This document shows, piece after piece, positions 965 through 8,734 of a stretch of DNA of 8,945 bases; position 1 is the stretch's first letter; every line of letters begins with the position of its first letter. Origin of the DNA: Dehalococcoidales bacterium (GTDB taxonomy: Bacteria > Chloroflexota > Dehalococcoidia > Dehalococcoidales > UBA3254); NCBI GenBank assembly GCA_016926695.1, contig JAFGOB010000087.1:1-8945 (forward strand), written 5' to 3'. The notes under the pieces were generated by a model, which did no database searches, was not told the DNA's origin, and saw only the letters and a list, made by a program, of their open reading frames with translations. The position numbers were made by a program, and so were the translations under genes.

Positions 965-1142
965 ACTGCCTCATTGGTATTAGGGGCCCAGGCCCCACAT
1001 CAGAGCAGTAATACCGCTAAGGGTAATGGGTTCAGAACCGATGGTGCACCCATCCGGGCTGGACCGGCATCTGCCGGTGACAGAAGAGGTTTCACAGAAC
1101 CTAGAAGATAACTAAAATGTCCCCGGGTAATCCGGGGCATTC
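965..1142. other. Non-coding, hairpin-dense region, unrecognised
   Basis: I see no credible gene here. The stretch contains a series of short perfect stems. GGTATTA (976-982) pairs with TAATACC (1009-1015) and encloses GGGGC/GCCCC (983-987/992-996). GGTT/AACC lies at 1029-1039, GATGG/CCATC at 1040-1054, ACCGGC/GCCGGT at 1063-1078, AGGTT/AACCT at 1087-1102, and CCCCGG/CCGGGG at 1121-1137. This spacing suggests a folded RNA, or a mosaic of palindromic debris at an integration boundary. It does not show the conserved cores of RNase P RNA, SRP RNA or the cobalamin riboswitch. The strand is undetermined because the stems are symmetrical. Confidence 0.4.
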
Positions 1143-1194
1143 TGGTGGAGACGGGGGAGAGTCGAACTCCCCCTAAAACAATGCTCTGCTTTGT
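1143..1194 (-). repeat. tmRNA (ssrA) 3'-end-like direct repeat, copy A
   Basis: Read on the minus strand, this 52-bp segment ends in GTCTCCACCA, preceded by a T-arm with a 7-bp stem GGGGGAG/CTCCCCC and loop TTCGACT. This is the usual shape of the 3' end of transfer-messenger RNA. Upstream of the T-arm is ACAAAGC-AGA-GCATTGT, itself able to fold. No alanine-type 5' acceptor half, tag-peptide frame or pseudoknot region was found upstream, where the cupin gene lies, so it is a fragment and not a complete ssrA. Copy B lies about 600 bp away in the same orientation. Such 3'-end duplicates are what integrases using ssrA as attachment site leave behind. Confidence 0.6.
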
Positions 1195-1229
1195 ATAGGA
1201 CTGAAATCTATAACGTACTCGGAAAAACC

Positions 1230-1706
1230 CTAATGTTCCCAGTGTTTGTATTTTTCGGGTACATCTCCAACGAATTTAAGTGGCCAATCGTTAGGACCAA
1301 ACCTGGCATCGATGAAAATGAGCGGCTTATCCACCCGCAGGATTTTCAACGGCTCGTGACTCATTCCCGCCGGGATATAGGCGTAAAAGGGATAGTTAAT
1401 CTTATGCCATTCATCGTCCAGGTAGAATTCCACATCGGCATCGAACTCTACAAAATTTTTCGCACCGAAGAGGAATATCCACTGGTCGCGGTCCGGGTGG
1501 ATGTGAGGAGCCATGCCTATCTCGTCTTCCGGTTTATCGATATAGGCGAATCCCAGGCACAGTTGAGAGCCCGGAATATCCCTCTCTCCCCCTGCCCCGA
1601 TCATCGGCAGAGTGATACTCTCGTGTACGGATTTCCCGGGTTTGAACTCAACTAGATTAGACTCGTGCCTCAAATTTCCCATTCGTACTTTTCCTGGTTC
1701 TGGCAT
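1230..1706 (-). CDS. Small single-domain cupin protein
   Basis: This encodes about 158 residues with a single cupin beta-barrel. Numbering from the upstream Met at 1712, motif 1 is G66-MAP-H70-I-H72 followed by PDRDQWIFLFG (Q77, G83), and motif 2 is P114-A-G116-MS-H119. H70, H72 and H119 are the expected metal-binding histidines. The glutamate usual in motif 1 appears to be replaced by Gln77 (or Asp76). Cupins of this size may be metal-dependent isomerases, dioxygenases, lyases or sugar/ligand-binding proteins; the substrate is not deducible. No signal peptide is seen, so a cytoplasmic protein is likely. The start is set at 1706 because the GGAGG at 1715-1719 lies 8 bases from that ATG, but only 2 bases from the upstream in-frame ATG at 1712. 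The gene stands alone on the minus strand, between two tmRNA-3'-like repeats, which suggests it travelled as cargo of an integrated element. Confidence 0.85.
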   Translation of the reverse strand: MPEPGKVRMGNLRHESNLVEFKPGKSVHESITLPMIGAGGERDIPGSQLCLGFAYIDKPEDEIGMAPHIHPDRDQWIFLFGAKNFVEFDADVEFYLDDEWHKINYPFYAYIPAGMSHEPLKILRVDKPLIFIDARFGPNDWPLKFVGDVPEKYKHWEH

Positions 1707-1714
1707 ACGCATTA

Positions 1715-1719
1715 CCTCC
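1715..1719 (-). promoter_or_regulatory. Ribosome binding site that decides the cupin start
   Basis: On the minus strand GGAGG is followed by TAATGCGT and then ATG at 1706, giving an 8-base spacer. The other in-frame ATG (1712) would leave only TA as spacer, which is too short for efficient initiation. Confidence 0.7.
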
Positions 1720-1744
1720 GCATAATTGATATCGTTAGTTTACA

Positions 1745-1794
1745 TGGTGGAGAGGAGAAAGTCGAACTCTCCCGGAAACAATGCTCTGCTTTGT
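1745..1794 (-). repeat. tmRNA (ssrA) 3'-end-like direct repeat, copy B
   Basis: This is a 50-bp imperfect copy of the repeat at 1143-1194, in the same orientation. On the minus strand it reads ACAAAGCAGAGCATTGTTT, then a T-arm with loop TTCGACT, then CTCTCCACCA. The first 19 bases on that strand match copy A exactly, and it is two bases shorter near the acceptor strand. The T-stem differs from copy A but still pairs (GGGAGAG with TTTCTCC, allowing two G-U pairs). It sits just upstream of the cupin gene. No complete ssrA was found extending from it toward 2100, so it too is a fragment. Confidence 0.6.
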
Positions 1795-1843
1795 CATATA
1801 AAACAACTTCTTTGACTGTTCGTACCATTCCTATAGGATCAGC

Positions 1844-1895: not shown

Positions 1896-1979
1896 GAACA
1901 CCATGTAACCCTGAAAAATGGCGGAGGTCGCTTGCCTCCTTTTCAAATCTCGATTATATTACTGTTTTCTTTAATTTTC

Positions 1980-2000
1980 AAGCATTTTATCCAAATGCTT
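1980..2000. repeat. Perfect 8-bp inverted repeat
   Basis: AAGCATTT (1980-1987) and AAATGCTT (1993-2000) flank the 5-base spacer TATCC. It could be an operator-like palindrome or a weak hairpin. No U-run follows on either strand and no gene abuts it. Confidence 0.4.
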
Positions 2001-2415
2001 GCCTTATAACCAAAAGCTACTAATCGTCTAAAAAGATGAGTGAAACAAAGATATCGACTTGAATAAAAGATACGGAATTTCTTTAAAATTATGCTTAATA
2101 CTTCCGTGAAAAATATTACAATTCGCATTTTGCTTTTTTCACATTTCAGCATCGGATAACTCATTTCAGGTATTGCATATCCTGTCAAGTACAGGTATAT
2201 TCAGGTGAATTGAGCCTTTCTGATTGCTCGGCATGGAAAACATACTCCCGAAGGCTATTGGTATTAAACCCATCTTGAGTTGCCTCTAGAAGAAATATCA
2301 GCTAATACCCGAAAGTATAAAAATCTATGACTGTTTATCCTTTGTGTATACTGGCGGGAAGGAATAGTAACATTCTGCTAGTATTGCGTAGATACGGGAA
2401 TATAGGAGGTTAACT

Positions 2416-3903
2416 ATGCCTGCAAATTCCAGACAGAATAACCAGCGGTCAACTATCGTTAAAACACAACAAGGCCAGGTCGAAGGGTTTCAGAAGGACG
2501 GTTTATTCAAATTTTACGGCATTCCCTTCGCCCAGCCGCCAGTCGGCGAATTACGCTGGAGGGCTCCACGGCCGGCTAAACCATGGAAAGATGTTAAGAA
2601 AGCAGTTGCGTTTAGTCCTATAGCATACCAGATCTCCCGGATTGAAGCCTCAAACGATGCAGATAAAGATCTGATACAGAGCGAAGACTGTCTGTACGTA
2701 AATATATGGACGCCTTCAATAGACGCCGGGGCAAAAATGCCGGTGATGGCGTGGATTCACGGAGGCGGTTACTTAAACGGGTCCGGATCTTTATATGAAT
2801 ATGACGGTTCGGAATTAGCAAAAAGGGGAGTTGTCGTTGTCGGCCTTAATTATCGTTTGGGCCCGCTGGGATTTTTAGCTCATGATGAATCTGCATCTGA
2901 AAATGAAAGAGATGCCTGCGGCAATTACGGCATAATGGACCAGATCGCCGCCCTGGAATGGGTAAAAAGTAATATCTCGAATTTCGGCGGGAATCCGGAA
3001 AATGTAACGATTTTCGGAGAATCGGCCGGGGCTATGAGCGTGGGGTTATTATCAGGATCGCCCCGGGCCGCAGGATTATTCCACAGGGCGATATGCGAAA
3101 GCGGAGGCATGCTTTATTTCCCCAGGGAAATAACCCGTAAGCAGGCATTAGCCTACACGCGCGAATTTCAGAAAGCTTGCAGAGCACAAAATTTCAACGA
3201 TATGCGTTCCTTGATGCCGGAAGAAATTATCAAGATAGCAAGACAGGTATCCGCTAATGATGAGATGCCAAGAGTAGCAAGGTTTACGCCAATTATCGAT
3301 AACAACATCATTAAGGATCAAGATACTACTTTAAGCGAGAGAGCAAAAATACCGCTGATCATCGGTTCTAACAGGCATGAAGCTACATGGTTTATGCAGA
3401 TGATGCCCCCGATAACCAGGAGCAACTACAGGGAAATTCTACAAAGGAATTTCGGCGAAAAGGCGATGCAAATGTTGAAATCTTTTTCGATCAACTCAGA
3501 TGCAGAAGCAAAGAAAGCCTTCATCGCTATTTACACCTGTAACCTGTTTACTTTACATGTTCACGAATTGGCTGCCGAGCTCAGTCGGCTCAACGGAGAA
3601 GTATACGTATACCGTTTTGACCGGGTTGCGCCTAAAAACCAGAAAAACGGGTTTGGCGTAGGTCATGGGGAGGAGATCGCTTACGTGCTGGGACATGTCG
3701 ATGTTGAAGGCTATATGGAAACGGACAAGATGGTTTCAGAAATAACGATGAAATATTGGACCCAGTTTGCCAGGACAGGCAATCCAAATCCCGTTGGCCT
3801 GCCGAAATGGCCGAAATATATTCAGGGGAAAAATGAATTCCTGATAATCGGTGATGAAGTATCGGTTGGGAATTATCATGAAGACAATCCCTTGGTTGAG
3901 TGA
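2416..3903 (+). CDS. Type-B carboxylesterase (alpha/beta hydrolase)
   Basis: This 495-residue protein hydrolyses carboxylic esters by the serine-hydrolase mechanism. The family marks appear in order: FYGIPFAQPPVGELRW (33-48), EDCLYVNIW (90-98), the oxyanion hole HGGGY (115-119), the nucleophile elbow GESAG with Ser203, the acid in GSNRHE (Glu322) and the base in GVGHGEE (His417). All three catalytic residues are present and the length is normal for bacterial members (about 490-540). The N-terminus (MPANSRQNNQRST) is polar with no hydrophobic signal, so a cytoplasmic enzyme is likely. The ATG at 2416 is supported by AGGAGG at 2404-2409, six bases upstream. The natural ester is unknown; pNB-esterase-like breadth is common in the family. 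It is first of four co-oriented hydrolases but is separated from the next gene by 164 bases and a small hairpin, so it is probably its own transcript. Confidence 0.92.
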   Translation: MPANSRQNNQRSTIVKTQQGQVEGFQKDGLFKFYGIPFAQPPVGELRWRAPRPAKPWKDVKKAVAFSPIAYQISRIEASNDADKDLIQSEDCLYVNIWTPSIDAGAKMPVMAWIHGGGYLNGSGSLYEYDGSELAKRGVVVVGLNYRLGPLGFLAHDESASENERDACGNYGIMDQIAALEWVKSNISNFGGNPENVTIFGESAGAMSVGLLSGSPRAAGLFHRAICESGGMLYFPREITRKQALAYTREFQKACRAQNFNDMRSLMPEEIIKIARQVSANDEMPRVARFTPIIDNNIIKDQDTTLSERAKIPLIIGSNRHEATWFMQMMPPITRSNYREILQRNFGEKAMQMLKSFSINSDAEAKKAFIAIYTCNLFTLHVHELAAELSRLNGEVYVYRFDRVAPKNQKNGFGVGHGEEIAYVLGHVDVEGYMETDKMVSEITMKYWTQFARTGNPNPVGLPKWPKYIQGKNEFLIIGDEVSVGNYHEDNPLVE

Positions 3904-4067: not shown

Positions 4068-5174
4068 ATGGTTACGGTCAATTCCACACCTAAAAAAGAC
4101 GGATTTGGAATGCCTGGCGAATTCGAGCCTCACAAAGGCTGCTGGATGATTTGGCCCGAAAGGAACGATAACTGGCGAAACGGAGCTAAACCCGCCCAGA
4201 AAGCATTTGCCGCCGTGGCAATTGCCATCGCAGGTTTTGAACCGGTTACGATGTGTGTATCTAAAAAACAATGGCACCATGCCCGGGCGATGTTACCGGA
4301 ATCAATCCGAGTAGTTGAGATTTCCAACAATGATGCCTGGATGCGGGATGTTGGCCCTACCTTTGTTACTAATGATAAAGGACTGGTCAGAGGTATTGAT
4401 TGGGATTTTAATGCCTGGGGAGGCCTTAAAGGCGGATGCTATTTCCCCTGGGACCAGGATGAGTTGATAGCCCAAAAGGTCCTTGAGCTGGAACAAATAG
4501 ACCGGTATAAATGTAGCCTCATCATGGAAGGCGGTTCTATCCACGTTGACGGTGAGGGGACGCTTATAACCACGGAAGAATGTCTGTTGAACCCTAATCG
4601 GAACCCCCAGCTTACCAGGGAACAAATCGAAGAGAATCTCAAGGAGTACTTAGGCGTTGAAAAAATCATATGGCTTGGCGAGGGTATCTATATGGATAAC
4701 GATACCAATGGTCATGTTGATAATCTTTGTTGTTTCGTAAAGCCCGGAACGGTATGTCTTACCTGGACCGAAGATAAAAATGACCCGCAGTATGAAATTT
4801 CTATGGATGCTTACAAACGTCTCAGTAGCACAACTGACGCCTTGGGGCGGCGGTTGGAAATTTACAAAATTAATCAACCTGCCCCGCTTTTTATAACCAA
4901 GGAAGAAAGCGAGGGCGTTGATTCTATTAAAGGTGCAATGCCCCGTGAACAAGGCAGCCGTTTATCGGCTTCTTATATTAACTTTTATATCGCAAACGGA
5001 GGTATCATGGTTCCGGGATTCGGTGACCCTAACGACAGCGAAGCTCGGAATATTTTGCAGAGCCTTTTTCCTGATTACAAAGTTGTGCAGATACAAACCC
5101 GGGAAATTTTACTTGGCGGGGGCAATATTCATTGTATTACCCAGCAGCAACCCTTGGGTAAAATATCAAAATGA
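4068..5174 (+). CDS. aguA: Agmatine deiminase (agmatine iminohydrolase)
   Basis: This 368-residue enzyme of the guanidine-group-modifying superfamily (PAD_porph) converts agmatine and water to N-carbamoylputrescine and ammonia. The family marks are [18 protein letters not shown] (15-32), [11 protein letters not shown] (87-97, with Asp94), [13 protein letters not shown] (153-165, Glu154), DTNGHVDN (212-219, His216) and [13 protein letters not shown] (350-362). Cys356 is the nucleophile, matching the near-identical position in the Enterococcus enzyme. Length is that of the family (about 365-380), and the absence of a signal peptide fits a cytoplasmic enzyme. The start has AGGAG nine bases upstream. 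In known routes the product is handled by N-carbamoylputrescine amidase (aguB), or by putrescine carbamoyltransferase with carbamate kinase; none of these is in the window. The neighbours are unrelated hydrolases. The assignment to the family is firm; the exact substrate is inferred from motif conservation. Confidence 0.92.
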
Positions 5175-5271: not shown

Positions 5272-6837
5272 ATGGAAAAGCATCCTGATCTTATTCTTAA
5301 GGGTAATGTTATTACTATGGTCAATTGGAAGCCCCGGGTGGAGGCGATCCGGATAAAGAACGGCAAAATCATTGCCGTTGGGTCAATGGAGGAAGTGGTA
5401 AAAGGAACCCCTGAATCTACGCAAATGATTGACTTTAAAGGAAAAACCATTGTCCCCGGTTTTATTGATACTCATACTCATTTATTAGCGACCGGAAGGG
5501 CAAGGGCCGGCGTAGATTTGTCTTCCGTGACCTCAATCAACGACGCCGTCGCCTTGATAAAACAAAGAGTGAAAATCACTCCACCGGGGAAATGGGTGTT
5601 GGCATGGGAGTTTAACCGCCTCAATACTAAAGAAAAGAGATTCCCGTATATAACAGAACTGGATGCTGTTTCCACGGAGCATCCTGTATTCATCCAGCAC
5701 TATGATACTCATTTTTTGATGCTTAATAGCCTGGCTTTTAAACAACTCGGCCTTTCACGGGAAATGGAGGGCATCGTTACGGATGAAAAAGGAGAGCCTG
5801 CGGGACTGATCGAAGACCCGACATCAACCGATCTGTGGTATAAAATCGTCGGCCTGGCAGATAAAAAAGAACTCCTTGAAGCTTTGAGAATAGCGACCAG
5901 GGAATCCGTTAGTGTCGGTATTACTTCCATTTACACCAAGGAAAGTCTGCAGGACGCCGAACTTATCTTAAAAAACCAAGATAATGTGCCGGTTCGGATC
6001 AAACCTATTTTGTTTTTCCACCCTCTGAGAGAAGAAGATATAGACGAGGTGCTCAGGGCTGATATCGTGAAGGGAAAAACCTGCGTGGCCACTTATGCCG
6101 ACGGATCCATTGAAGGCCACACCGCCGCTCTTTACGAACCGTATACCGATAGGCCTGACACACTGGGTATGCTGTATTATACCGATGAGGAAATGCATCG
6201 TTTCGTCGAAAAAGCGCACCGGGCCGGCCTGCAAATTTCCATCCATGCCGAATCTGACAGGTGTATCGAACAAGTCCTTAGCACGTATCAAAAAGTCCTT
6301 GAAAAATACCCCCTTAACGACCATCGTCATCGTCTCGAGCATTTCGAACTCGGCACTAAAAAACAGATCAAGCTCGCGGCAAGACTTGGGATCATTCTGG
6401 CCATGCAGCCGATATTCATAACTGTTTGTGAAGGCCCTGACCTGGATTATTACCGGTCGTTATTAGGCGATGATAGAGTAAAAAGGGCGCATACATACCG
6501 TGCGATTCTTGATGAAGGAATAACTGTTGCCGGCGGTTCTGACACTCCGGTGACAAGAATGAGCCCTTTAAATGGTATCCATGCCTGCGTTAACCATCCG
6601 CTTAAAGAACAGCGCGTTGATGTCCATGAAGCAATCGAGATGTTCACGGTTAACGCGGCTAAAGCTGGTTTTGAAGATGATATTAAGGGGAATATCGAAC
6701 CGGGAAAGTTGGCGGATTTTACGGTCTTGTCAGATGACCCGTATCGTGTCCCCCGGGAGAGGATAAAAGATATTGAGGTTGAGGCAACCATCATTGGCGG
6801 GGAGATAGTGTATCAAAAAAAGAAAAATACGCCGTAG
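5272..6837 (+). CDS. Amidohydrolase, YtcJ/LAF3-like (Amidohydro_3)
   Basis: This 521-residue metal-dependent hydrolase has the amidohydrolase TIM-barrel between two parts of a small beta domain. The N-terminal strands (DLILKGNVITM, KNGKIIAVG) lead to VPGFIDTHTH with metal ligands His68 and His70. Further ligands are His325 in ISIHAESD, His357 in RLEHFEL and Asp424 in AGGSDTPV. The C-terminal closure is NIEPGKLADFTVL (474-486). The motif YADGSIEGHTAAL (275-287) corresponds to the YtcJ-type ADGS...TA signature. Most members I know have a lysine four residues before that Asp; here it is Ala273. Relatives act on N-substituted formamides and other amides or cyclic amides; the substrate here is unknown. 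AGGGAG lies five bases before the ATG. No signal peptide is seen. It follows agmatine deiminase by 97 bases in the same direction. The gene downstream starts 163 bases after its stop with no strong terminator between, so they may share a transcript. Confidence 0.9.
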   Translation: MEKHPDLILKGNVITMVNWKPRVEAIRIKNGKIIAVGSMEEVVKGTPESTQMIDFKGKTIVPGFIDTHTHLLATGRARAGVDLSSVTSINDAVALIKQRVKITPPGKWVLAWEFNRLNTKEKRFPYITELDAVSTEHPVFIQHYDTHFLMLNSLAFKQLGLSREMEGIVTDEKGEPAGLIEDPTSTDLWYKIVGLADKKELLEALRIATRESVSVGITSIYTKESLQDAELILKNQDNVPVRIKPILFFHPLREEDIDEVLRADIVKGKTCVATYADGSIEGHTAALYEPYTDRPDTLGMLYYTDEEMHRFVEKAHRAGLQISIHAESDRCIEQVLSTYQKVLEKYPLNDHRHRLEHFELGTKKQIKLAARLGIILAMQPIFITVCEGPDLDYYRSLLGDDRVKRAHTYRAILDEGITVAGGSDTPVTRMSPLNGIHACVNHPLKEQRVDVHEAIEMFTVNAAKAGFEDDIKGNIEPGKLADFTVLSDDPYRVPRERIKDIEVEATIIGGEIVYQKKKNTP

Positions 6838-6861: not shown

Positions 6862-7011
6862 GTGCAAATCAAAGTAAATCGCAAACTTAATTCCAATAAC
6901 GTCATTCTGCTGGGGGCAGGTCAGGCATCCTCAAAGGAGCCGTTTGTCCCTCATGTTGAAGGCTTAATTATCGGCGCTAAAAATGAAGGAGGTATTCTTG
7001 ATGTTACCTAA
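6862..7011 (+). CDS. Possible 49-codon small ORF or gene remnant ahead of the CocE-type gene
   Basis: The frame opens directly after the amidohydrolase stop codon (it is in register with it) and runs to a TAA at 7009-7011. A GTG at 6862 is the first plausible start, with GGGAG at 6854-6858 but a spacer of only 3 bases. The translation contains NVILLGAGQASSKEPF and HVEGLIIGAKNEGGILDVT, which has protein-like composition. It runs across the ribosome binding site and first codons of the next gene, so it could act in translational coupling. Alternatively it is the decayed C-terminal end of an older gene. I recognise no family. Confidence 0.25.
   Translation: MQIKVNRKLNSNNVILLGAGQASSKEPFVPHVEGLIIGAKNEGGILDVT
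6986..6993 (+). promoter_or_regulatory. Ribosome binding site that decides the CocE-type gene start
   Basis: AAGGAGGT is a near-perfect anti-16S match. An in-frame ATG at 6983 overlaps it and so cannot be served by it, while the ATG at 7001 follows GGAGG by 8 bases. This argues for a start at 7001. Confidence 0.75.
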
Positions 7012-8734
7012 TGAGTCTATCAAAATCGAATTTAATGTTCCAAGCCGCTTGCGAGATGGTACGATATTATACTCTGATGTCTACCGCCCGGAGGCACATG
7101 GCCGCTATCCAGCTATTATCACCCGCCTCCCTTACAATAAGGACCTTGAATTTCCCAGCGGCACCAACGCCTATATGAATCCGGTAGCATTCGCCAAGGC
7201 TGGGTACGCCGTGGTCATCCAGGATGTCCGGGGCACCGGCTCTTCAGAGGGAGCCGCAGCTTACTGGCAGCAGGAAGTTGAAGACGGCTATGACTCGGTC
7301 GAAGCGATAGCCGCTCAGCCATGGTGTGATGGGAATGTAGGTATGTTTGGCTATTCTTACTTTGGTTACACCCAGTGGGCAGCTGCAGTGGCCCAGCCCC
7401 CCCATCTCAAAACTATATGCCCGGGCTTCACCGACACGGAATTCCACCGGTTCCCCTTCACGATCAGAGGCGATAAACTAAAGCATAAGACCCATTATTA
7501 CTGGACCCTATTTATGAGCCTTCTGGGGATGATCAGAAGCAAAGAATCCCCCGAGCAAATTAAAGCTGTGACGGACCGGCTAATCTACCTGAATGATCAC
7601 CTCGACGAACTGGTTAATTATTTACCTTTGAAAGATTCTGAAGTGATTAAGACCGTCGATGACCTGGGGATGGTGCCCCGCTTTTACGATCTTTTGACGC
7701 ATACCGAAGATTTTGAGTTCTGGGAAAAAACCGGCGGACAGCTGCCGCTGGATAAGGTAACGGTTCCGGCATTTCACATTGTTGGCTGGTTTGACATAGA
7801 TTTTTGTCCGGCTATAATCAATAACTACCTTGAGCTGGAAAGGCTGGGCGCGCTAACAGGTAAAAAAATCAAACAAAAACTGATTATCGGGCCGTGGGTC
7901 CATACCGGGGAAATGCCGAGTACAACCGGTGAAATGCAATTTGGAGGAAGCGCCTCAGGGGCCATGGACAATATTATCGGCAGACAAATCAGCTGGTTTG
8001 ATCATTGGCTCAAAGGCAATAATAACAGTGTTGAGAATGAGCCCCCGGTACACATTTTTGTCATGGGTGAGAACCGCTGGCGAGATGAGAACGAATGGCC
8101 TTTAGCCAGGACCCAATACCGTGAATATTATTTTCACAGCCATGGTTGCGCGAATACCCTCTCAGGCGATGGTTCTTTGAACGAGACTCCCCCCGGAGAA
8201 GAAGCTTTCGACGGCTATCTTTACGACCCGAGAAACCCGGTCAAGACACATAAAATGGGGACGGGGTGCTACGATCAAAGGGAGGTTGAGAGCCGGAGCG
8301 ATGTCCTGGTTTATTCTACAGAGCCGCTAACCACCAACCTGGAGGTAACCGGCCCAGTCAAGGTTAAACTATGGGCATCCACTTCAGCGATAGATACGGA
8401 TTTTACCGCCAAGCTGGTCGATGTTTTCCCTGACGGCCGGGCGTTTAACATGGCGGAAGGAATTATCCGGGCTGGGTACCAGCCCAAAATAGGCCTCAAG
8501 CCGCTTATCCCGGGGAAAATATATGAGTATGAAATTAACCTGGGGCCCACCAGTAATGTCTTCCAGGCAGGGCACCGTATTCGAGTGGAGATCTCCAGTA
8601 GCGATTTCCCCAAGTGGGACCGGAACCTGAACACCGGCGCTCCTCTAGGTGTGGGGACAGAAATAAAAACCGCGATGCAGAATGTGTTTCACCAGAAACA
8701 GTTTGCTTCCCATATCGTGCTCCCTGTAATCTAA
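7001..8734 (+). CDS. CocE/NonD family serine hydrolase (X-Pro dipeptidyl-peptidase S15 fold)
   Basis: This 577-residue acyl hydrolase uses a Ser-Asp-His triad. The alpha/beta domain begins with RDGTILYSDVYRP (18-30), then TRLPYN (41-46), whose Tyr45 lies where the oxyanion-hole Tyr of cocaine esterase sits. Next come DVRGTGSSEG (75-84), the nucleophile elbow GYSYFG with Ser119, GWFDID with Asp265 and GPWVHTG with His301. A helical lid occupies about 150-245. From about 345 to the end is the C-terminal jelly-roll (PepX_C), ending in the typical SSSDFPKWDRNLNTG (531-545). Length fits the family (about 550-600). Members cleave cocaine-like esters, glutaryl-7-ACA side chains or X-Pro peptides; residue patterns alone do not choose among them. 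No signal peptide is seen. The start at 7001 is chosen over an in-frame ATG at 6983 because the latter overlaps the ribosome binding site. It is last of the four hydrolases, with a large hairpin 21 bases after the stop. Confidence 0.92.
   Translation: MLPNESIKIEFNVPSRLRDGTILYSDVYRPEAHGRYPAIITRLPYNKDLEFPSGTNAYMNPVAFAKAGYAVVIQDVRGTGSSEGAAAYWQQEVEDGYDSVEAIAAQPWCDGNVGMFGYSYFGYTQWAAAVAQPPHLKTICPGFTDTEFHRFPFTIRGDKLKHKTHYYWTLFMSLLGMIRSKESPEQIKAVTDRLIYLNDHLDELVNYLPLKDSEVIKTVDDLGMVPRFYDLLTHTEDFEFWEKTGGQLPLDKVTVPAFHIVGWFDIDFCPAIINNYLELERLGALTGKKIKQKLIIGPWVHTGEMPSTTGEMQFGGSASGAMDNIIGRQISWFDHWLKGNNNSVENEPPVHIFVMGENRWRDENEWPLARTQYREYYFHSHGCANTLSGDGSLNETPPGEEAFDGYLYDPRNPVKTHKMGTGCYDQREVESRSDVLVYSTEPLTTNLEVTGPVKVKLWASTSAIDTDFTAKLVDVFPDGRAFNMAEGIIRAGYQPKIGLKPLIPGKIYEYEINLGPTSNVFQAGHRIRVEISSSDFPKWDRNLNTGAPLGVGTEIKTAMQNVFHQKQFASHIVLPVI

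Follow-up and report, generated by a model that had tools for sequence, protein, structure and literature searches.

The closest described counterparts of the locus reported here are the ssrA-associated genomic islands (ssrA-GIs) of Dehalococcoides, in which tandem direct repeats of the ssrA 3' end lie downstream of ssrA (McMurdie et al. 2011, PMC3146451). In these islands, the crossover was inferred to lie in the T-loop, and dsiB overlaps the repeat; the encoded protein, DsiB, shares about 22% identity with CcrB (PMC3146451). The integration module (dsiB/dsiA) is present in 16 of the 31 published islands and missing from the other 15, and thus is not obligatory (PMC3146451). The passage of that paper devoted to dsiB considers the ssrA end unlikely to encode a functional part of DsiB, leaves the dsiB stop codon unclear, and suggests that full function of dsiB might be restricted to the circle or to a position behind a neighboring island (PMC3146451). 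The ssrA-associated dcpA island of Dehalogenimonas, large at about 23 kb by its coordinates, also combines direct repeats downstream of ssrA with recombinase genes (PMC13390414); its coordinates in NSZ-14 apparently coincide with the positions of ssrA and of the scars in genome G212 of the present set. Among the titles and abstract openings of the open-access literature, we recognized neither single-gene ssrA cassettes nor a follow-up of the dsiB tail, which is no proof of absence.

The window, that is, the entire 8,945-nt stretch of DNA analyzed here (contig JAFGOB010000087.1 of a Dehalococcoidales bacterium), contains a minimal version of such an island, a known kind of element, although its scars can be read in a new way. 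Two composite repeats, W1 and W2, bracket a single gene:

1121..1137, minus strand: terminator-like hairpin that starts 6 nt past the CCA end of W1 (z -3.76 for 1105-1145)
1143..1194, minus strand: scar W1, 52 nt, consisting of an ssrA 3' end (1143-1172) and an element end (about 1173-1194)
1160..1198, plus strand: opposite strand of W1, reading SRTPPKTMLCFV and a stop, an apparent orphan tail of a DsiB-like recombinase
1230..1712, minus strand: cupin gene, 160 codons, the sole gene of the unit, with GGAGG before the ATG
1745..1794, minus strand: scar W2, 50 nt, consisting of a decayed ssrA 3' end with a 2-nt deletion in the acceptor part and the same element end as in W1
1760..1801, plus strand: opposite strand of W2, reading SRTLPETMLCFVI and a stop, an apparent orphan tail of a DsiB-like recombinase

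As in the Dehalococcoides ssrA-GIs, the unit is bounded at both ends by direct repeats of the ssrA 3' end, the one in W2 being decayed, and the dsiB frame crosses the repeat in W1 and W2, with a full dsiB extending over ssrA in the related genome G190. The ssrA-GI motif TTCAGRSMGMRKCCA beside the repeat is matched, by eye, at 14 of 15 positions at the first site of genome G378, at 12 of 15 in W2 and at 11 of 15 in W1. Unlike the published islands that carry the module, the window unit contains no dsiB/dsiA, and it further differs from the Dehalococcoides islands in its size (0.6 kb), its content (one cupin gene and no rdhA), the greater length of its conserved element half, which spans about 22-28 nt in scars of the sub-type found in the window, and the presence, in relatives with this sub-type, of scars away from ssrA. 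Moreover, the element half is shown here to be conserved as coding sequence, which is raised as a mere possibility in the account of the Dehalococcoides islands (PMC3146451). The single gene of the window unit likewise sets it apart from the dcpA island, a large one with recombinases, with which it has the direct repeats of ssrA in common (PMC13390414). The Staphylococcus SCC elements (CcrA/CcrB) are alike in having two serine recombinases, in being inserted close to where a single-copy gene ends and in occurring in tandem; given the different target gene and host, the element works like SCC but is not a member. Integrons employ a tyrosine recombinase and folded attC sites. Their cassettes resemble the units described here in being short, arrayed and equipped with one recombination site each, a likeness of working at most, because the site in the present units belongs to both ssrA and the gene of a serine recombinase, and the genes do not all point the same way. 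All things considered, W1 and W2 very likely are the junction scars of tandem islands of the Dehalococcoides type, the cupin unit being one non-autonomous island that lacks a recombinase.

The arrangement reported in the first-pass annotation of this DNA, namely, two direct minus-strand repeats of 52 and 50 nt with one gene of about 160 codons between them and right ends 600 bp apart, was reproduced exactly. W1 and W2 have the same orientation, and their alignment shows five substitutions as well as an indel of 2 nt that falls in the acceptor part, with AAACAATGCTCTGCTTTGT, in the element half, identical in both; for the ungapped 36/41 match between them, a uniform-base estimate gives a chance expectation of about 1.6e-9 per window of this size. 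In the tmRNA sense, the repeats read ACAAAGCAGAGCATTGTTT.., followed by the T-arm, the acceptor strand and CCA. The first-pass identification of the repeats as ssrA 3' ends holds for only about 26-30 nt of each; the remainder is element sequence. A tmRNA covariance search, the check envisaged at first pass, matched W1 only weakly in Rfam, at 15.6 bits (E 0.0048) where the gathering score is 47, and W2 was absent from the tmRNA matches of the window scan at E<=10; three further Rfam matches in that scan were far below their gathering scores and were judged to be due to chance. ARAGORN found no tRNA gene and no tmRNA gene in the window. An alternative that these observations address is that the repeats are functional tmRNA-like or other small-RNA genes, for example, parts of a split tmRNA, rather than scars. 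The T-arm of W1 indeed folds better than most shuffled sequences (-17.1 kcal/mol, z -2.45) and is followed by the terminator-like hairpin, but W2 folds no better than its shuffles (z -0.63), and the acceptor strands, counted by eye, are one base too long in W1 and one base too short in W2. Together with the weak Rfam match of W1 and the negative ARAGORN result, this makes functional RNA genes an explanation that can practically be dismissed.

Intact ssrA genes of relatives delimit the two parts of each repeat. The first 30 nt of W1 are identical (30/30) to the intact ssrA 3' end of G001, a Dehalococcoidaceae metagenome-assembled genome; the ssrA 3' end of G378 is the same, and in the G293 gene a single base is different. 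By itself, the W1 match points to the class of the host, Dehalococcoidia, but not to a species. The element half (~22 nt, AAACAATGCTCTGCTTTGT) is missing from all three, and because these genes diverge from the repeat at that half, each repeat is a junction between an element end and an ssrA end. The match to intact ssrA ends of these nearest relatives supports the integration footprint proposed at first pass. At the second site of G001 and the second site of G378, the ssrA half is missing, and in the ssrA downstream flanks of G001 (5.1 kb), G378 (3.2 kb) and G293 (8.4 kb), all genomes that carry the scar sub-type of the window, no junction was found; in G298, which has the same sub-type, the sites and ssrA are on different contigs.

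Two sites without the ssrA half and some copies far from ssrA are what might be expected of a dispersed repeat unrelated to ssrA mobility. However, the ssrA half of the scars corresponds to the real ssrA ends of relatives, the sites across the class cluster downstream of ssrA in direct orientation (see below), and the long repeat-derived pattern, when run over genome contigs, matched a single stretch (L001, a 3.7-kb contig of G001), so that we consider a dispersed repeat very improbable. The same long pattern had no matches in viral contigs. The Rfam scan of L001 gave a snoRNA match below the cut-off and nothing else. About 100 bp from the first G001 scar, at positions 361-370 of L001, there is a further truncated TGGTGGAGA-like ssrA end without the element half.

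The junctions were then followed through the Dehalococcoidia using two class sets, of 393 and 386 genomes, both drawn from a larger group. A strict pattern detected 5 sites in 3 of the 393 genomes, and the reversed-pattern control none. R1, a sequence-only model built from 7 sites including W1 and W2 (63.2 and 55.3 bits, respectively, as training sites), matched 166 of the 393 genomes, but many of the matches listed span the ssrA half only, that is, ssrA itself or ssrA-like sequence; among the matches listed, the long element half was present only in G001, G378, G293 and G298, nearly whole in G308, and weakly matched in G385 and G369. R2, a junction-core model built from 47 sites, again including W1 and W2, yielded 66 sites in 29 of 386 genomes; both models re-found their own training sites, and some weaker sites that are known, such as the second sites of G001 and of G378 (contig C32), fall below the threshold applied with R2. 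Neighboring R2 sites within 6 kb of each other are direct in 14 of 15 pairs and inverted in one. In six essentially single-contig genomes, 16 of 27 sites are located within 100 kb downstream of ssrA on the same strand (7/9 in G190, 5/7 in G201, 2/5 in G084, 2/3 in G212, 0/2 in G125 and 0/1 in G147, the latter on the presumption that its ssrA-half match is ssrA). In G146, both sites lie downstream of ssrA on the ssrA contig; G099 has a site as well, with an ssrA position outside these counts. Junction arrays are also found away from ssrA in some genomes. The tandem occurrence of the junction motif downstream of ssrA in the single-contig genomes agrees with the serial insertions that the first-pass annotation had suspected. 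Dehalococcoides islands are likewise located within 100 kb downstream of ssrA (PMC3146451).

The only inverted pair belongs to G033 (contig C3, locus L104). Its scars, at 2175-2210 (+) and 4569-4606 (-), point towards one another, and the 615-aa ORF in between resembles, to our eye, a TypA/BipA-type GTPase, which is usually encoded by a core gene; the pair may reflect an inversion between scars. Dehalogenimonas-like genomes also contain a second type of scar (L100 at 2303, 2411, 3283, 3387 and 4910; L097 at 2701; L103 at 2356; L105 at 10596; L069 at 18069), in which the element tail is joined to a shared sequence rather than to an ssrA half. In the dsiB frame, the shared sequence gives (S)SSSESRT or a close variant, and a hairpin frequently comes after it; the sites may be of the circle type and unused, or they may mark a different target.

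A search for a recombinase beside ssrA, again a suggestion made at first pass, led to a serine recombinase of the DsiB/CcrB kind. In G190, the gene for a 551-aa serine recombinase begins downstream of ssrA and is directed towards it, with its last ~22 codons located within ssrA on the other strand. Relatives of this protein (tblastn; at least 309 aa aligned, 60-100% identity) adjoin ssrA at 7 of the 14 loci examined (G190, G212, G084, G201, G146, G033 and G308); at the G293 ssrA, there is a C-terminal recombinase piece only (a 119-aa ORF). The examined ssrA flanks of G001, G378, G298, G125, G013 and G144 contain no recombinase beyond short matches at the ssrA end, with the G144 ssrA lying at a contig end, so that its flank is not visible. 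Of six genomes tested with PF07508 and PF00239, G308 and G212 encode such recombinases, and G001, G378, G293 and G298 gave no match to either domain. The window itself, as noted at first pass, is without an integrase and a full ssrA: none of its six main ORFs is a recombinase, and tblastn with DsiB at E<=1e-3 found no match in it, ARAGORN likewise having found no tmRNA. The lack of a recombinase in the window ORFs and the scars of the window sub-type away from ssrA in relatives count against the island reading, as do the negative domain searches in G001, G378, G293 and G298, the two sites without an ssrA half, the one inverted pair and the zero counts downstream of ssrA in G125 and G147.

On the strand opposite to ssrA, the dsiB frame runs through both window repeats, as SRT..KTMLCFV-stop in W1 and SRT..ETMLCFVI-stop in W2. 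After ..SRT, the tail is MLCFV-stop in the lineage of the window and ET(M/R)..L.WL in Dehalogenimonas-like genomes. The frame table, in which 54 of 55 sites were anchored via a GAAACA-like codon pair, is not independent evidence of coding because the anchor is the codon pair itself and lies at a fixed distance from the TCGAAC core at the DNA level. Among nine window-type sites (from 11 sites of the window, G001, G378, G293 and G298 with a long element half, leaving out L061, which has a 3-nt insertion, and the diverged L062; the weak G385 and G369 matches were also unused), 95 of 141 pairwise differences fall at third codon positions (permutation p 0.005). In a second group of 14 sites, which are related to one another and not independent (from 16 sites of G190, G084, G212, G201 and G125, two with very short tails being omitted), the in-frame protein score is 20.1, whereas the other frames of the same strand give 6.6 and 8.0 and no frame of the reverse strand exceeds 12.8, and none of 300 column shuffles reached the in-frame score; stops interrupt 1 of 14 tails in frame and 10 and 11 out of frame. 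The third-position bias of this second group is not significant (p 0.18). From the third-position bias in the first group and the in-frame score and stops in the second, we conclude that the tail has been under selection as protein, and the element half looks like the C-terminal tail of DsiB, a CcrB-like serine recombinase, encoded on the opposite strand. Such protein-level selection supports the 2011 suggestion on dsiB. Coding on the opposite strand speaks against reading the ~22 nt as purely a recombinase-binding arm; binding of the recombinase may nevertheless contribute to the conservation of the element half.

A mechanism can be outlined in which a CcrB-like serine recombinase (DsiB, with DsiA) would cross over in the T-loop of ssrA, at a site that would lie within the dsiB reading frame on the strand opposite to ssrA. 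As the site is inside that frame, insertion would sever the last dsiB codons and leave them at the far end of the island; these codons, PETMLCFV-stop in the lineage of the window, would be the non-ssrA half of each scar. Each scar would then combine the right end of one island with the copy of the ssrA 3' end from the left end of the next island, and the cupin unit would extend between the T-loops of W2 and W1, a distance of about 0.6 kb. The exact crossover point, catalysis by DsiB/DsiA and the origin of the window array at ssrA are what we infer from these comparisons. The proper 3' end of dsiB, then, probably is the conserved tail at the far end of the island, not the ssrA antisense, which bears on the puzzle, left from 2011, of where dsiB ends. 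A more far-reaching version, which we regard as rather unlikely, holds that, in uncultured Dehalococcoidia, cassettes of one to three genes form arrays because the serine recombinase inserts them at ssrA as well as at the scars of other cassettes, each crossover swapping the recombinase C-terminus; on the same doubtful footing, the free circle would encode the element's own tail (PETMLCFV-stop in the window's lineage), and the form inserted at ssrA would end in ssrA-antisense residues. If true, the swap would explain why a conserved coding tail is kept in each scar, and could report the free versus the inserted state to the recombinase.

The gene between the scars was called a cupin in the first-pass annotation, a name with which the predicted fold (pLDDT 89.7) and Foldseek agree, the top hits being cupins (first hit, E 5.3e-06, TMt 0.63). 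From this structural model, we are confident in a predicted cupin beta-barrel fold. The only Pfam match, Cupin_2, is below the cut-off (E 0.17), and a profile search of the PDB gave no match. An alignment of 36 relatives shows conservation of His70, His72 and His119, a pattern compatible with a metal site. There are 155 relatives in the protein database at E<=0.001, and at E<=1e-20 there is a single relative in 393 class genomes (50%, in G378), as expected for cargo. In G378, 38 first-look cupin candidates were noted (9 scored, 1 match), compared to 0 to 2 in the other listed genomes. Seven pattern stretches for the cupin in viral contigs were considered and none was confirmed. The ATG is located 32 nt past the CCA end of W2, with the GGAGG in between, which leaves no room for a promoter, so that the cupin gene may depend on upstream transcription, for example, from ssrA on insertion or from a promoter-like site further upstream:

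1953..1981, minus strand: putative promoter-like site (11/12 consensus bases), directed towards W2 and the cupin gene

Six promoter-like sites were found in 900-2450, compared to 2.8 expected.

Between one and three genes are present in each of the scar-bounded units that were inspected gene by gene, a set that leaves aside the two G084 pairs, the G190 pairs of 106 and 860 bp and most of the G201 pairs:

Window: one cupin gene, 0.6 kb
G001: one 742-aa protein between two scars
G378: an FAD-binding protein and a ferredoxin (a pair defined by Pfam domains)
G190: one RdhA (PF13486), L097 2701-4719, sites 1.98 kb apart
G125: one 89-aa ORF
G033: one 214-aa ORF in the first unit, two ORFs in the second
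G144: one 327-aa ORF
G013: DUF1214 and DUF1254 proteins
G146: the same DUF1214 and DUF1254 pair as in G013 and a 710-aa ORF

Gene direction differs among the units. To our eye, the G378 pair looks AprAB-like, Pfam assigning FAD-binding and ferredoxin domains only; a second copy, 70% similar, is present beside another scar half, and each copy (L020, L065) adjoins a scar or scar half. Further ORFs similar to the lone rdhA-family gene of G190 flank it on either side. Past the first G001 scar, there is a fragment of a distantly related cupin (37% over 71 aa), and just outside the second one, at 2976-3466 of L001 on the minus strand, there is a HicA toxin gene (PF07927) with a probable HicB, the latter label being our reading without a Pfam hit. 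The first-pass view of the cupin gene plus a 3' end as one module was upheld, the independent mobility of this unit being putative. The mechanism of the ssrA islands of organohalide-respiring Dehalococcoides and Dehalogenimonas thus has also left scars on either side of small genes other than dehalogenase genes in further Dehalococcoidia, and the scars are a cheap marker of island ends in fragmented metagenome assemblies.

Within the island reading, the cupin unit can be understood in two ways. One, for which the arguments are about evenly balanced, is that it is what remains of a larger autonomous island that lost the integration module and most of the cargo and kept the right-end tail. Such loss fits the absence of a recombinase from the main window ORFs and, by the domain searches, from four of the six genomes tested, as well as the decayed ssrA half of W2, the 119-aa recombinase piece at the G293 ssrA and the short C-terminal pieces of dsiB beside the ssrA half at the scars of L100, L104, L098 and L053, as deletion derivatives would have; the G146 unit, too, has a gene that is missing from the related G013 unit. 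Yet, neither W1 nor W2 has a remnant of the dsiB body, and short units of one to three genes recur in several genomes. Their recurrence, in the window, G001, G378, G190, G125, G033, G144, G013 and G146, is rather what would be expected if such units were cassettes with one scar each, mobilized in trans by DsiB/DsiA, accumulating integron-like and also inserting at scars away from ssrA, where arrays are indeed found. The units of G013 and G146 bear on this possibility: they share 95.2% identity over 1477 nt, compared to 87.2% for the ssrA loci, where the similarity extends only 4 nt beyond the ssrA 3' end, and a unit more alike than the ssrA-side locus is expected for recent transfer. The match ends at a scar on one side, but, on the other side, it stops 77 nt inside the G013 unit, where G146 has no scar, and over 155 nt at their left ends the two units are only 76% alike; apart from the unit, the left ends and the scars, the two stretches have no other match. 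With the varying gene direction and with no empty site or circle seen, we consider cassettes mobilized in trans possible, although less probable than loss from a larger island.

To the right of W2, the window carries four genes that are probably the cargo of a neighboring unit:

2416-3903, plus strand: carboxylesterase
4068-5174, plus strand: agmatine deiminase
5272-6837, plus strand: amidohydrolase
6983-8734, plus strand: CocE/NonD-family hydrolase

Of 393 class genomes, one contains a match to the agmatine deiminase at E<=1e-60, with 40% identity. To the left of W1, the ORF at 19-924, which had no Pfam or NCBIfam hit, looks to us like a branched-chain amino acid binding protein. The G+C content drops from 55.6% in this left gene to 47.5% in the cupin unit, with 47.1% in the genes to the right, a shift consistent with foreign DNA from W1 rightwards. 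Shortly upstream of W2, at ~1854-1890 on the minus strand, there is a T-arm-like stretch (GGTCGGGAGTTCAAATC) without an Rfam or ARAGORN match, which is possibly a decayed tRNA or an island remnant.
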